Below, piece by piece: positions 46,566 through 50,743 of a stretch of DNA of 64,000 bases. Every line of letters begins with the position of its first letter. The first letter of the stretch is position 1. Under the pieces are notes generated by a model. It was not told the origin of the DNA. It made no database searches and worked only from the letters and a program-made list of their open reading frames with translations. Source of the stretch: Geothrix limicola (GTDB lineage Bacteria; Acidobacteriota; Holophagae; Holophagales; Holophagaceae); contig NZ_BSDE01000007.1 in NCBI RefSeq assembly GCF_030268085.1, positions 124,001 to 188,000 on the forward strand. The letters are read 5' to 3'. Position numbers and translations under genes: made by a program.

Positions 46566-47777
46566 ATGCACTCACGCACCTGGCTCTCGGTCCTGTCGCT
46601 CCCCCTCGTGGCTGCCTTCACCATGCCGGTGATGCAGCAGGGCAACGCGCCCAAGCCCCAGTCCAAGGCGGGCGCCAAGGCTGTGCCCCAGGATCCCCTG
46701 GCGGGCCTGTCCGACATCCAGGACGTGCTGTCGCTCGTGCAGCAGAATTACGTGGACCCCCCCGACATGGACAAGGTGGTGTCGGGCGGCGTGCAGGCCG
46801 TGCTGGAGCGTTCGCACCCCCTCAACGCCTACCTGAGCGCCGAAGATCTCCGCCTGCCGGATCCGGGCCCCGCCGAAGCGGGGATGATCATCGTGAAACG
46901 GGGCATCTACGCCACGGTGGCCGCGGTGACACCGGGCGGGCCCGCAACCAAGGCGGGCATCCAGGCCGGTGATGTGATCCGCAAGGTGGACGGAGATTCC
47001 GTCGGCCGGCTCAGCGCCTGGGCCCTGGAGCGCAAGCTGCGCGGGCCCGATGGGTCGTCACTCGACCTCTACCGCTACAACGCCACGGGAGACCTCACCA
47101 AGACCACCGTGCAGCGCCAGCGCCTCACGCCAGGCGCGGTGGCCGTCAAGCACGGCCAGGGCGCGCTGATGGTTTCGCTGCCGGACCTGGATGCGGGGCG
47201 GGCCGAAGAGGTGAAGAAGGCGCTCGCGGCCGTGGATCACGGGGAGACCCTCGTGCTGGACCTGCGGCAATGCCAGAGGGGCGCCATGACTGAAGCTGCC
47301 GCCCTGGCCGGGGCTCTGGGCGCGAAAGGCGCCTTCGCCACCCTGCAGGAGGCGGGCAAGCCGGATCGCGAGATTCCGGTGTCGGGCCAGGGAACGCCTT
47401 TCGCGCACCTGGCGCTGTTGGTGGGACGTGCCACCCTGGGCGCGCCGGAAGTCCTGGCCTCCTGCCTCAAGAAGGGCGGCGCGAAGGTCCTGGGTGAGCG
47501 GACTCCGGGCCTGGGTGTCGAGCGCACGCGCTTCCTCCTGAAGCAGGGCGGGGCCGTGGAGCTGGTCTCCAAGCGCTGGGTGGGGCTCGGGGGCGAGAAG
47601 CTCGATCGCCAGGGAATCGTTCCCGATCAGGTGCTTCGCATGGCGGACACCGAAGATGCGCTGGCCCGAGTAATGACGGCCCTGGCGACTCCCGCCGTCA
47701 AGGCTGAGTCCCAGGCCTCGCATGGCATTCCCGTTCCCAAACTGGAAGTCCCGCCGCCGGTCAAGAAGCCCGACTGA
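46566..47777 (+). CDS. S41 (CtpA-like) protease homologue, catalytically degenerate
   Basis: This 403-aa exported protein has a CtpA-type layout: a helical N-terminus (IQDVLSLVQQNYVDPPDMDK), PDZ (about 105-175, with IQAGDVIRKVDGDSV) and an S41 core. The catalytic serine motif is GRATLGAPEVLAS, with Pro294 where active enzymes have Ser. The lysine motif reads ERTPGLGVE, with Leu316 where Lys is needed. It is therefore probably a non-proteolytic scaffold. It overlaps the YibQ-type gene by one base, the conserved CtpA-YibQ neighbourhood. Confidence 0.82.
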   Translation: MHSRTWLSVLSLPLVAAFTMPVMQQGNAPKPQSKAGAKAVPQDPLAGLSDIQDVLSLVQQNYVDPPDMDKVVSGGVQAVLERSHPLNAYLSAEDLRLPDPGPAEAGMIIVKRGIYATVAAVTPGGPATKAGIQAGDVIRKVDGDSVGRLSAWALERKLRGPDGSSLDLYRYNATGDLTKTTVQRQRLTPGAVAVKHGQGALMVSLPDLDAGRAEEVKKALAAVDHGETLVLDLRQCQRGAMTEAAALAGALGAKGAFATLQEAGKPDREIPVSGQGTPFAHLALLVGRATLGAPEVLASCLKKGGAKVLGERTPGLGVERTRFLLKQGGAVELVSKRWVGLGGEKLDRQGIVPDQVLRMADTEDALARVMTALATPAVKAESQASHGIPVPKLEVPPPVKKPD

Positions 47778-48691
47778 TGGCAGGAAGCAAAAAGAAACGC
47801 ACCTCCACCCTGGCCCTGGTGGGCTGGGCCGTGCTCATGCTGGCCCTGGGCCTGGGCGCCGGGCTGGTGCTGGGCCAGCAGGGCTGCGGCAAGCGCGGCA
47901 CCCCCGAAAAGCACGAGGCGCCCAAACCCGAACCCAGGAAGCCCGAGAAAAAAGGGACTGAGCCCAAGGCTAAGCCTCCGGCTGAGGCGGCCAAGCCCCA
48001 GAGTCCCGAGCCGGAACACCCACTGCCGCGCTTCGCCCTCGTCATCGACGACCTCGGCTACATGCAGCCGGAGCTGGTGACGCGGCTCTGCAGCCTGCCC
48101 GTGGCCTTCAGCGTGGCCGTGCTGCCCTACCAGGAGCACACGCGTGAAAGCGCGGAGATCGCGCATCGCCTGGGCAAGGAGGTGATGCTGCACCTGCCCA
48201 TGGAACCTATCGGCTACCCGGCGCCGGGCCGCGATCCGGGGCCCAACGCCATCCTCTTCAACCTTCCTGAACCCGAGGTCCGTCGCCGCGTGCGGATGGC
48301 GCTGGATGAGATTCCATTCCGCGCGGGCGTGAACAACCACATGGGCAGCCGCATCACGCCGGACCGCACGCGCATGGGCTGGGTGCTGCAGGAGATCAAG
48401 GCGCGCAAATACTTCTTCGTGGACAGCCGCACGGAGAAGGACAGCGTGGCTTACGACGTGGCCGAGGAACTGCACGTGCCCTCAGTCCAGCGGCGCGTCT
48501 TCCTGGACGACGACAAAGCCTTCCCCGAGATGGAAAAGCAGTGGGAGCGGGCTCTCAAGCTGGCGGAGAAGGAGGGCTCGGTGCTCATCATCGGCCACAT
48601 CTACCCCGAGACCGTGGAGGCCCTGGAAAAGCTGGTGCCCCGCACGAAGGGCCAGGTGCGCTTCGTGACCGCAGGGCAGCTGGTGAAATGA
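47777..48691 (+). CDS. Divergent polysaccharide deacetylase (YibQ/DUF610)
   Basis: This 304-aa protein has an N-terminal membrane anchor (TLALVGWAVLMLALGLGAGL) and a Pro/Lys-rich periplasmic linker. The deacetylase fold starts at RFALVIDDLGYMQPELVTRL, with VMLHLPMEP, NNHMGSRITPDRTRM and FFVDSRT motifs, all typical of YibQ. It acts in the envelope, probably on peptidoglycan-related material. It overlaps its neighbours at both ends. Confidence 0.9.
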   Translation: MAGSKKKRTSTLALVGWAVLMLALGLGAGLVLGQQGCGKRGTPEKHEAPKPEPRKPEKKGTEPKAKPPAEAAKPQSPEPEHPLPRFALVIDDLGYMQPELVTRLCSLPVAFSVAVLPYQEHTRESAEIAHRLGKEVMLHLPMEPIGYPAPGRDPGPNAILFNLPEPEVRRRVRMALDEIPFRAGVNNHMGSRITPDRTRMGWVLQEIKARKYFFVDSRTEKDSVAYDVAEELHVPSVQRRVFLDDDKAFPEMEKQWERALKLAEKEGSVLIIGHIYPETVEALEKLVPRTKGQVRFVTAGQLVK

Positions 48692-49485
48692 GGGCCCTCG
48701 CGCTGCTCGTCTGTGCGGTGATGGGCCAGGTCCACGCCCGGGCTCAGGACTGGACCGAAGCCGAAGTTGCGCGCGCCTTCGCGCCCAACGACTACGTGTT
48801 GTTGTGGGACCGCGGCGATCGCGTGACGCGATGGAGCCGCCATCTGAAGGCCACGGAGGCCTTCCAGCCGTGCTCAACCTTCAAGCTGCCCCACGCCCTG
48901 ATCGCCCTCGAAGCGGGTGTCATCACGCTGCAAGAGAACCGGCGGCACTGCGATCCTCGCGAATGCCACGCCGACCATGGCGAGATCGACCTGGCGGGCG
49001 CCATCCGCGAATCCTGCCTGAGCTACTTCCGTCAGACGGCGCGGGCCCTCGGCCCCGACCGCATGGCCGCAGGATTGGCCAGGCTCGGATACCCCGCCAC
49101 AGGGCCGCTTCAGCCCATCGACGGTTTCTGGATCACGGGCGAGATGAAGGTCACGGCCGAGCAGCAGCTTCGCTGGATCCGACGCTTCTACACCGAGGCG
49201 TTGCCCGTGAAACCCGAATACCTGGAGGCCGTGAGGGCCGCATCCCTGAAGCCCTCGAAGGGGGACTACGTCCTCCAGGGCAAGACGGGAAGCTCGGGCC
49301 ACGGAGACGGCTGGTTCATCGGGCAGGTGACCCAGTACGGCGTTCCAGCCTGGGTGGTGATCCTGCTCAAGGGGGACCACGCGACGGGCATGGAGGGCGA
49401 ACGTCGCCTGAAGGAATTCCTGTTACCGAAATCTCCGCTAGGATCAAAGTCCGGCGATGGTGTCCGCCCCAAAACCGCTCCTTGA
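48688..49485 (+). CDS. Class D (OXA-type) beta-lactamase family protein
   Basis: This 265-aa protein has a signal peptide (residues 1-19). The class D motifs are in order: S63-T-F-K66 (nucleophile and the lysine carboxylated in OXA enzymes), S109-C-L111 at the SxV position, F147-W148, and K199-T-G at KTGSSGHGDG. The sequence DGFWITGEMKVTAEQQ aligns with the OXA omega region. It may hydrolyse beta-lactams or act as a penicillin-recognising enzyme of wall metabolism. ATG 48688 overlaps the YibQ stop. Its last 11 codons contain the fluoride riboswitch of the next gene. Confidence 0.88.
   Translation: MRALALLVCAVMGQVHARAQDWTEAEVARAFAPNDYVLLWDRGDRVTRWSRHLKATEAFQPCSTFKLPHALIALEAGVITLQENRRHCDPRECHADHGEIDLAGAIRESCLSYFRQTARALGPDRMAAGLARLGYPATGPLQPIDGFWITGEMKVTAEQQLRWIRRFYTEALPVKPEYLEAVRAASLKPSKGDYVLQGKTGSSGHGDGWFIGQVTQYGVPAWVVILLKGDHATGMEGERRLKEFLLPKSPLGSKSGDGVRPKTAP
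49439..49444 (+). promoter_or_regulatory. Possible -10 element for the riboswitch transcript
   Basis: TAGGAT lies 8-9 bp before the aptamer, inside the beta-lactamase frame. The -35 is weak (TTCCTG, 16-bp spacer), so this is only a suggestion. Confidence 0.3.
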
Positions 49486-49519
49486 GCTGATGGCGCCTGC
49501 GCGAAGGGAGGGCGTAGGC
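49452..49519 (+). ncRNA. Fluoride (crcB-type) riboswitch with translational expression platform
   Basis: Aptamer: P1 GGCG (49453-49456)/CGCC (49465-49468). The P1 loop strand GGTGTC (49459-49464) pairs with GGCGCC (49492-49497) as the pseudoknot, six of six pairs counting G-U. P3 is GCTC (49477-49480)/GAGC (49484-49487), followed by the conserved TGATG. This matches the known fluoride aptamer in layout and conserved bases. Downstream, GCCTGCGC (49495-49502) can pair with GCGTAGGC (49512-49519), placing the AGGGAGG ribosome site in the loop. Since 49495-49497 are shared with the pseudoknot, ligand binding would open the site. The aptamer's first part lies within the beta-lactamase coding sequence. 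Confidence 0.88.
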
Positions 49520-50743
49520 ATGTTCGATTCGAGACAGCAGGTGGCGAGAACGTTCTGGGACATCGCCGCGGGTTCGGTGGTGGGCCTGATGTCGGGCGCC
49601 GCTTCGGCAGGCTTCATCTTCCTTCTCGGGCGCGCGATCCACCTTCGCGAGCAGCATCTCTGGCTGCTGGGCTGCCTGCCCCTGTTCGGCCTGGCCTCCG
49701 CCTGGCTCTACCACCGCTACGGCAAGGGGGCGGAGGGTGGCGGTGGCCTGATCATGGACGAGGTGCTCGAATTCAAGGGCCGCGTGCCGTCGCGCATGGC
49801 GCCCCTGGTGCTCATCGGCACGCTCCTTTCGCATCTGGGCGGAGCCTCCGTCGGCCGCGAAGGCACCGCCGTCCAGATGGGCGCCTCCCTGGCCCGCAGC
49901 TTCGGGAAGCTGCCCTGGGCCTGGTTGCGCCTGACCCAGTCGCGCCAGCGCCTGCTCCTCATGGCCGGCGTGTCGGCGGGCTTCGGATCGCTGTTCGGCA
50001 CACCCGCGGCGGGTGCGGTGTTCGGCATGGAGGTCATCGCCATCGGCAAGATCCACTACGAGGGCCTCGTGATCTGCGGGGTGGCGAGCTTCGTGGGGGA
50101 CTGGGCCTGCCGCGGTCTCGGCGCCCATCACGACCTCTATCCGGCCCTGTCCCTGCCCCTCACGCCCAGTCTGGGGCTGAAGCTCGCGCTCTTCGCGCTG
50201 CCGGTGGCCCTGGTGGCGGGCAGCTTCTCCGAGCTGTCGCACGGCCTGGCACGGTGGACGCGGGCCCGCTGGCCCGCCTGGTGGCTCCGCCCCCTGATCG
50301 GCGGCCTGGCCTTCATCGCGCTGACGGCCCTGTTTCGCAGCACGGATTACCTCAACCTGGGCACCGTGTGGCTGCCGCGCGTGTACCAGGGCGCTGGCGT
50401 GCCCGTCTGGGCCTTCGCGGCCAAGGTGGGCTTCACCGTGCTGTGCCTGGGCTTCGGCTTCAAGGGCGGGGAGGTGACGCCCCTGTTCGTCATCGGCTCC
50501 CTGCTGGGCGTGGCCCTGGCGCCCGTGTTCGGCCTGCCGCCGACCTTCCTGGCCACCATCGGCTTCATCGCGATGTTCGCCGCCGCGAGCAACACGCCCC
50601 TCGCCTCGACGCTCATGGGCATCGAGCTCTTTGGCGGCGCCTTCCTCGCACCCCTGGCCGTCACGAGCGCCCTGGCCTACGTGCTGGTGGGCCACCGCGG
50701 CATCTACGGCGGCCATCGCGTGGAAACGCCCAAACAGGCCTAG
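49520..50743 (+). CDS. CLC-family anion transporter, probable fluoride/proton antiporter
   Basis: This 407-aa membrane protein has the CLC signature GGASVGREGTAVQMGASL, with gating Glu114 in GREGT, and the later GFKGGEVTPLFVIGSLLG. GREGT (rather than GREGP) and a GGGGLIMDEV stretch in place of the chloride-type GSGIPE filter are traits I associate with fluoride-specific CLC-F proteins. The fluoride riboswitch directly upstream supports fluoride export strongly. ATG 49520 is the true start, because the longer frame would run through the aptamer. Confidence 0.88.
   Translation: MFDSRQQVARTFWDIAAGSVVGLMSGAASAGFIFLLGRAIHLREQHLWLLGCLPLFGLASAWLYHRYGKGAEGGGGLIMDEVLEFKGRVPSRMAPLVLIGTLLSHLGGASVGREGTAVQMGASLARSFGKLPWAWLRLTQSRQRLLLMAGVSAGFGSLFGTPAAGAVFGMEVIAIGKIHYEGLVICGVASFVGDWACRGLGAHHDLYPALSLPLTPSLGLKLALFALPVALVAGSFSELSHGLARWTRARWPAWWLRPLIGGLAFIALTALFRSTDYLNLGTVWLPRVYQGAGVPVWAFAAKVGFTVLCLGFGFKGGEVTPLFVIGSLLGVALAPVFGLPPTFLATIGFIAMFAAASNTPLASTLMGIELFGGAFLAPLAVTSALAYVLVGHRGIYGGHRVETPKQA

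Follow-up and report, generated by a model that had tools for sequence, protein, structure and literature searches.

A fluoride riboswitch, probably a translational ON switch for a CLC-F-type gene, is overlapped by the apparently slipped 3' end of a beta-lactamase-like gene in Geothrix limicola

One outcome of our analysis of a 64-kb stretch of the Geothrix limicola genome (64,000 nucleotides, referred to here as the window) is the presence of a fluoride riboswitch aptamer immediately before a gene for a CLC-F-type antiporter, i.e., a protein of the kind that exports fluoride. We consider it very probable that, taken together, this is a standard fluoride riboswitch within an apparent operon, that it works as a translational ON switch for the CLC-F-type gene, and that its overlap with the end of the upstream beta-lactamase-like gene (bla) is incidental. 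The features on which this reading rests are the following.

47777-48691, + strand: divergent polysaccharide deacetylase gene (Pfam PF04748, E 3.6e-72)
48688-49485, + strand: class-D-like beta-lactamase/transpeptidase-fold gene (bla), 265 aa, ATG at 48688 and TGA at 49483-49485 (Pfam PF00905, E 3.2e-17)
49439-49441, + strand: counterpart of the TAG that ends bla in three relatives, here not in the bla frame (nucleotide alignment)
49444-49506, + strand: fluoride riboswitch aptamer, core 49453-49499 (Rfam RF01734, cmscan 51.9 bits)
49453-49468, + strand: P1 hairpin GGCG/CGCC, 49453-49456 with 49465-49468 (covariance-model alignment)
49459-49464, + strand: pseudoknot loop strand GGTGTC, within the P1 hairpin (covariance-model alignment)
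49477-49487, + strand: P3 hairpin, 49477-49480 with 49484-49487, containing the TGA (49483-49485) that closes the slipped bla frame
49488-49492, + strand: TGATG, directly 3' of P3
49492-49497, + strand: pseudoknot 3' strand GGCGCC, its last three bases common to the hairpin predicted to sequester the Shine-Dalgarno sequence
49495-49519, + strand: putative expression platform, an 8-bp hairpin (49495-49502 with 49512-49519, minimum-energy fold) directly before the CLC ATG
49506-49511, + strand: Shine-Dalgarno sequence GGGAGG, in the hairpin loop
49520-50743, + strand: CLC-F-type fluoride/proton antiporter gene, the predicted regulated gene (Pfam PF00654, E 1.6e-60)

The crcB covariance-model run that the preliminary description had proposed as a check was carried out over the whole window and gave a significant match, scoring 51.9 bits where the gathering score is 34 (with E 1.7e-11 for the 64 kb) and covering the model in full (positions 1-64 of 64). 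All the parts that had been drawn by eye, i.e., P1, P3, six pseudoknot pairs and TGATG, were recovered by the model, two of the six pairs between GGTGTC and GGCGCC being G-U. The bounds first given to the aptamer, 49452-49500, place it properly and are too narrow, as the Rfam span is longer, while the count of 11 final bla codons plus 15 bases past the stop is right (10 codons and the stop fall in the core, with 15 bases to 49500). The only other gathering-level Rfam match in the window is a tRNA, and a search of the genome to which the window belongs found this single RF01734 riboswitch. In the window the 17-mer GGCGATGGTGTCCGCCC has a single exact occurrence, and two other sites at 3 mismatches are near what is expected by chance. 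In an alignment of relatives (found by the same model), the 13 tested pairs of P1, P3 and the pseudoknot were all standard in each of the 17 distinct rows, and one aptamer pair was changed on both sides, in 6 rows. By sequence and predicted structure the aptamer is a real member of RF01734, i.e., a standard fluoride riboswitch, which would bind fluoride as the known family does.

The gene that follows had been described as a CLC gene with fluoride-type features, and homology to the CLC-F antiporters bears this out. Its product (407 aa from the ATG at 49520) has as best PDB match the CLC-F structure 6d0j (E 1.6e-54), whereas the next best CLC, Sll0855, only reaches 1.3e-14 and the best E. coli ClcA 1.7e-6. 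The protein is thus closest to CLC-F and not to the chloride CLCs, and fluoride transport is predicted for it. At the other end of the locus, the stop of the deacetylase gene overlaps the ATG of bla as ATGA, so that the genes look like one operon. The CLC frame is also open backwards through the aptamer (49457-49520), with in-frame ATGs at 49457 and 49490. Both were set aside as starts, since neither has a Shine-Dalgarno sequence before it. In addition, the frame from 49457 is closed by a TAA in the relatives G020 and G029 (within CCATAACC, after the first ATG, where the window reads CCAAAACC), and in G040 it differs from the frame of the CLC gene. Elsewhere, a CLC-F homologue 70% identical to that of the window was found in another genome of the genus (L111, G004), with no fluoride riboswitch at or over the gathering score in the surrounding stretch examined. 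Around a further CLC-F homologue, which has one in-frame TGA (G054), there is a lysine riboswitch (L109:2842-3020), and a single 22-kb contig (G076:C66) holds six fluoride riboswitch matches, suggesting a cluster of fluoride-response genes.

Between aptamer and gene lies the hairpin that we propose as the expression platform. It is present both in the minimum-energy fold and in the centroid, its loop contains GAAGGGAGG, and the CLC ATG is immediately 3' of it. Bases 49495-49497 (GCC) belong both to this hairpin and to the 3' strand of the pseudoknot, which would make the full hairpin and the bound aptamer mutually exclusive. Without fluoride, 49495-49502 would pair with 49512-49519 and shut the Shine-Dalgarno sequence in a loop just before the start codon. 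When fluoride is present, 49492-49497 would go to the pseudoknot, the base of the hairpin would open and ribosomes could load. The release may be partial, given that five of the eight hairpin pairs could persist with the pseudoknot formed. Most likely, then, fluoride raises CLC translation by freeing the Shine-Dalgarno sequence, the direction being that expected from the known family. Transcription as an operon, fluoride binding and the direction of switching are the steps of this explanation that we infer.

Recurrence of the stem was looked for in 45 riboswitches from the genus and family, 34 of which received a start codon under a simple rule (11 were left unscored). Seven stem pairs directly before the start were found in 20 of the 34 (window included), and 12 of the 34 did not show this stem. 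Two more loci, L022 and L033, show it when an ATG 6 bases further on is taken as the start, giving a total of 22 out of 45. The stem stands both before CrcB genes (Pfam-checked in L025 only) and before CLC genes. For the analysis of covariation we used 21 of these 22 loci (L035 was left out), which gave 17 distinct rows; as the rows were picked for having the stem, their 100% pairing is a matter of selection. Two stem pairs are changed on both sides (G-C to A-U and U-A to C-G), the cells with double changes number 12 against a shuffled mean of 4.9, the covariation score is 0.315 against 0.183, and sliding the partner strand lowers the pairing to 14-53%. Doubly changed pairs (2 vs. 1.9) and pair types (4 vs. 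5.0) were no more numerous than in the shuffled alignments, and the changes mostly separate crcB loci from CLC loci, so that few events could account for them. Taken whole, the 79-base segment has no better a fold than its shuffled versions (z 0.29, with 115 of 200 at least as good). Altogether, recurrence and covariation lend moderate support to the predicted platform hairpin.

Transcriptional control, as in the B. cereus crcB riboswitch, is the well-studied fluoride mechanism, and the switch in the window might work in the same way, by termination and not by hiding the Shine-Dalgarno sequence. We regard this as highly improbable, because no terminator-like hairpin with a run of T was found between 48900 and 49620 and the alternative stem adjoins the start codon and encloses the Shine-Dalgarno sequence. 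Besides, in the in vitro test of PMC13273304, 323 of 1901 fluoride riboswitches are reported to work as transcriptional switches. A sigma-70-like promoter was likewise not found in the same interval (48900-49620).

The gene upstream had been called OXA-type, and this holds only loosely, as a likeness to class D. Class D (OXA) beta-lactamases carry the motifs S-x-x-K, K-T-G, S-x-V and Y-G-N. The first two (S63TFK66 and K199TG201) are invariant in the four aligned sequences, i.e., the window and three relatives, and at the S-x-V position there is SCL in the window and SCV or SCI in the relatives. The Y-G-N motif is absent, a YPA being aligned to the YGN of the best PDB chain (5oe0), and the score against the NCBIfam class D equivalog was 111.4 bits, below the cut-off of 250. 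With YPA for YGN and a score of this kind we call the gene only class-D-like and attach no firm enzymatic role to its product.

Counting from where P1 starts, the bla stop ends at the 33rd base of the aptamer, and the preliminary description saw here a notable nested design, with one DNA serving for both protein and sensor. The comparison with relatives does not sustain this interpretation. We searched 47 genomes of the genus (that of the window included) and found a close bla homologue, i.e., with E below 1e-100, in four (G000, G029, G020 and G040). The gene order deacetylase, bla, riboswitch and CLC is kept in all four, and in the three relatives bla stops ahead of P1, with a TAG placed 14, 14 and 9 bases before it in G020, G029 and G040, respectively. 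The homologous TAG is still there in the window, standing in TAGGATC as in G020 and G029. Counted by hand on the alignment, 16 bases separate the L245 codon from it in the window and 15, 15 and 15 in G020, G029 and G040. The protein alignment agrees, being intact up to L245 and breaking afterwards: the relatives have five more residues (GGEIR, SGEIR and ERAVW) and the window has 20 without any resemblance to them, read from the spacer and the aptamer. The overlap is thus due to a single additional base close to the 3' end of bla, which puts the TAG out of frame, and the frame ends at the TGA in P3. That TGA is a second difference, as the sisters G020 and G029 have CGA in its place, and without it the slipped frame would be open for 612 more codons. 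In the simplest history, the lineage of the window would have undergone a slip of one base where bla ends, a stop being available in the variable part of P3. The overlap would then be incidental to the switch, with the TAG displaced by the extra base and the frame closed inside P3. A conserved nesting in G040 (L018), suggested by tblastn, was discarded on finding that the match crosses a TAG in the bla frame shortly ahead of the Rfam span. The bla homologue L131, which is more distant (49%), has no riboswitch at or over the gathering score in the stretch examined and is of no help in dating the overlap.

The extra base could also be a sequencing or assembly error, in which case bla would end at TAG 49439-49441, outside the Rfam span, and the overlap would be incidental all the same. 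The genome is a draft in 20 contigs, three relatives end bla at that very TAG, and TAGGATC is retained in the window in spite of the TAG being out of frame. On the other hand, there is no long homopolymer at the site of the extra base, the adjoining genes are open with overlaps of 1 and 4 bases, and the TGA that closes the frame in P3 is a further difference from G020 and G029. We therefore consider an error somewhat unlikely and take the extra base to be, with a good degree of probability, a true mutation. Whether mutation or error, the nesting looks accidental from the comparison of these genomes.

To put the arrangement in a wider frame, we surveyed genomes of the phylum, taking from them 127 fluoride riboswitches (69 out of the 83 matches in one list, plus 58 of 60 hand-picked from the upper part of another list, two at contig ends being left out) for same-strand ORFs of at least 80 aa with their stop inside the aptamer. 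The start of P1 was set at model position 10, a motif check of which failed in 19 of the 127, and a few loci had little upstream sequence. We found 13 such ORFs in 12 of the riboswitches. Two are in the window, namely bla and a shadow frame, and three others (L015, L018 and L020) were rejected as shadow frames, the true deacetylase or bla frame ending upstream. The other eight had no Pfam match at E 0.01. The GC content at third positions speaks against six of these and not clearly against L154 (0.84) and L143 (0.68), so that most have the look of shadows in another frame and one or two could be unrecognised genes. A recognisable gene with its stop inside the aptamer was therefore found in the window only, 1 of the 127 surveyed.

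Within the genus, the upstream neighbour of the riboswitch is the deacetylase gene in 18 loci, and the gap from its stop to P1 is of 12-13 bases in 14 of them (10, 40, 45 and 66 in the other four). The loci with a gap of 12 or 13 bases are L020, L023, L025, L027, L029-L032 and L034-L039. A distance of 12 or 13 bases is about what a terminating ribosome covers, and the regularity could be due to shared ancestry or to selected spacing. With such close packing against the upstream stop being common in the genus, a short slip is enough to produce an overlap.

An alternative is that the overlap has a function, with ribosomes that finish bla stopping in P3 and melting the aptamer, so that CLC expression would respond both to fluoride and to the translation of bla. 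Given the size of a ribosome, one terminating at the 33rd base from P1 would lie over P3 and extend in the direction of the pseudoknot strand. Besides, the TGA in P3 prevents a run-on of 612 codons, which makes this stop matter to the present arrangement. There is also a precedent of a kind in Mycobacterium tuberculosis, where a translated short ORF in the metE B12 aptamer lowers expression (PMC11260477). However, the overlap occurs in only 1 of 127 surveyed riboswitches, it is absent in all three relatives with the same gene order and the bla tail is not conserved; its being missing from the relatives examined counts against its use. We judge such a function improbable. The stricter version, a two-input switch in which ribosomes terminating in P3 block the folding of the aptamer, fluoride works only if bla is little translated, and the TGA has been kept to stop ribosomes before the CLC start, would be quite improbable. 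The incidental overlap is the reading that we retain.

The same chromosomal site holds different genes after the riboswitch. In 18 loci the deacetylase gene is followed directly by the riboswitch (L015, L020, L023, L025, L027-L032, L034-L039, L041 and L042), while in four (the window, L018, L022 and L033) bla, riboswitch and CLC come behind the deacetylase. In the one relative of the first group that was checked, L025, the gene after the riboswitch is crcB, its product being identified as CrcB by Pfam. It seems that at the deacetylase locus the exporter has been swapped and the riboswitch kept. In both contexts the element appears in the role known for RF01734, ahead of a fluoride-response gene, a CLC-F homologue in the window and CrcB in L025.

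These data add a well-supported fluoride riboswitch in the Acidobacteriota, with a compact and probably translational platform that, at one and the same chromosomal site, precedes crcB as well as CLC genes. They also provide a natural variant of spacing, since the distance from the upstream stop to the aptamer is of 12-13 bases in 14 of the 18 deacetylase loci and of minus 33 in the window, so that the influence of a ribosome at its stop on the folding of the aptamer can be tested directly.

As to known systems, the element is the same as the fluoride (crcB) riboswitch RF01734 in its full-length match, in its P1, P3, pseudoknot and TGATG, and in its location directly before a gene of the fluoride-exporter type. 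It differs from RF01734 in general in that the upstream gene of the window reads most of the core in frame, while those of the relatives examined do not. Among the best literature matches listed, none described a fluoride aptamer that overlaps the gene before it. The fluoride riboswitches of Pseudomonas syringae and Burkholderia pseudomallei serve as translational controls in PMC13273304. In line with such translational switches, no terminator was found around the element of the window (48900-49620), and its pseudoknot strand and ribosome-site hairpin share bases and would exclude each other. A probable difference is that in the window the Shine-Dalgarno sequence is in the loop of the hairpin and the stem ends at the ATG. 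The metE B12 riboswitch of M. tuberculosis (PMC11260477) resembles that of the window in having a reading frame within the aptamer; in metE this frame is a short uORF whose effect has been demonstrated, whereas in the window a complete upstream gene has its tail there, with at most a putative effect. Finally, the loss of a stop codon, with the use of the next in-frame stop, is a recognised route to same-strand gene overlap (PMC10666635). The bla gene of the window likewise loses its stop and takes the next one in frame downstream, and it departs from those cases in that the cause is a frame slip in place of a stop-codon substitution and the stop now used lies within an RNA element ahead of the following gene. 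A known riboswitch family thus gains a member, and the slip at the 3' end of the upstream gene is seen in the genome of the window only.
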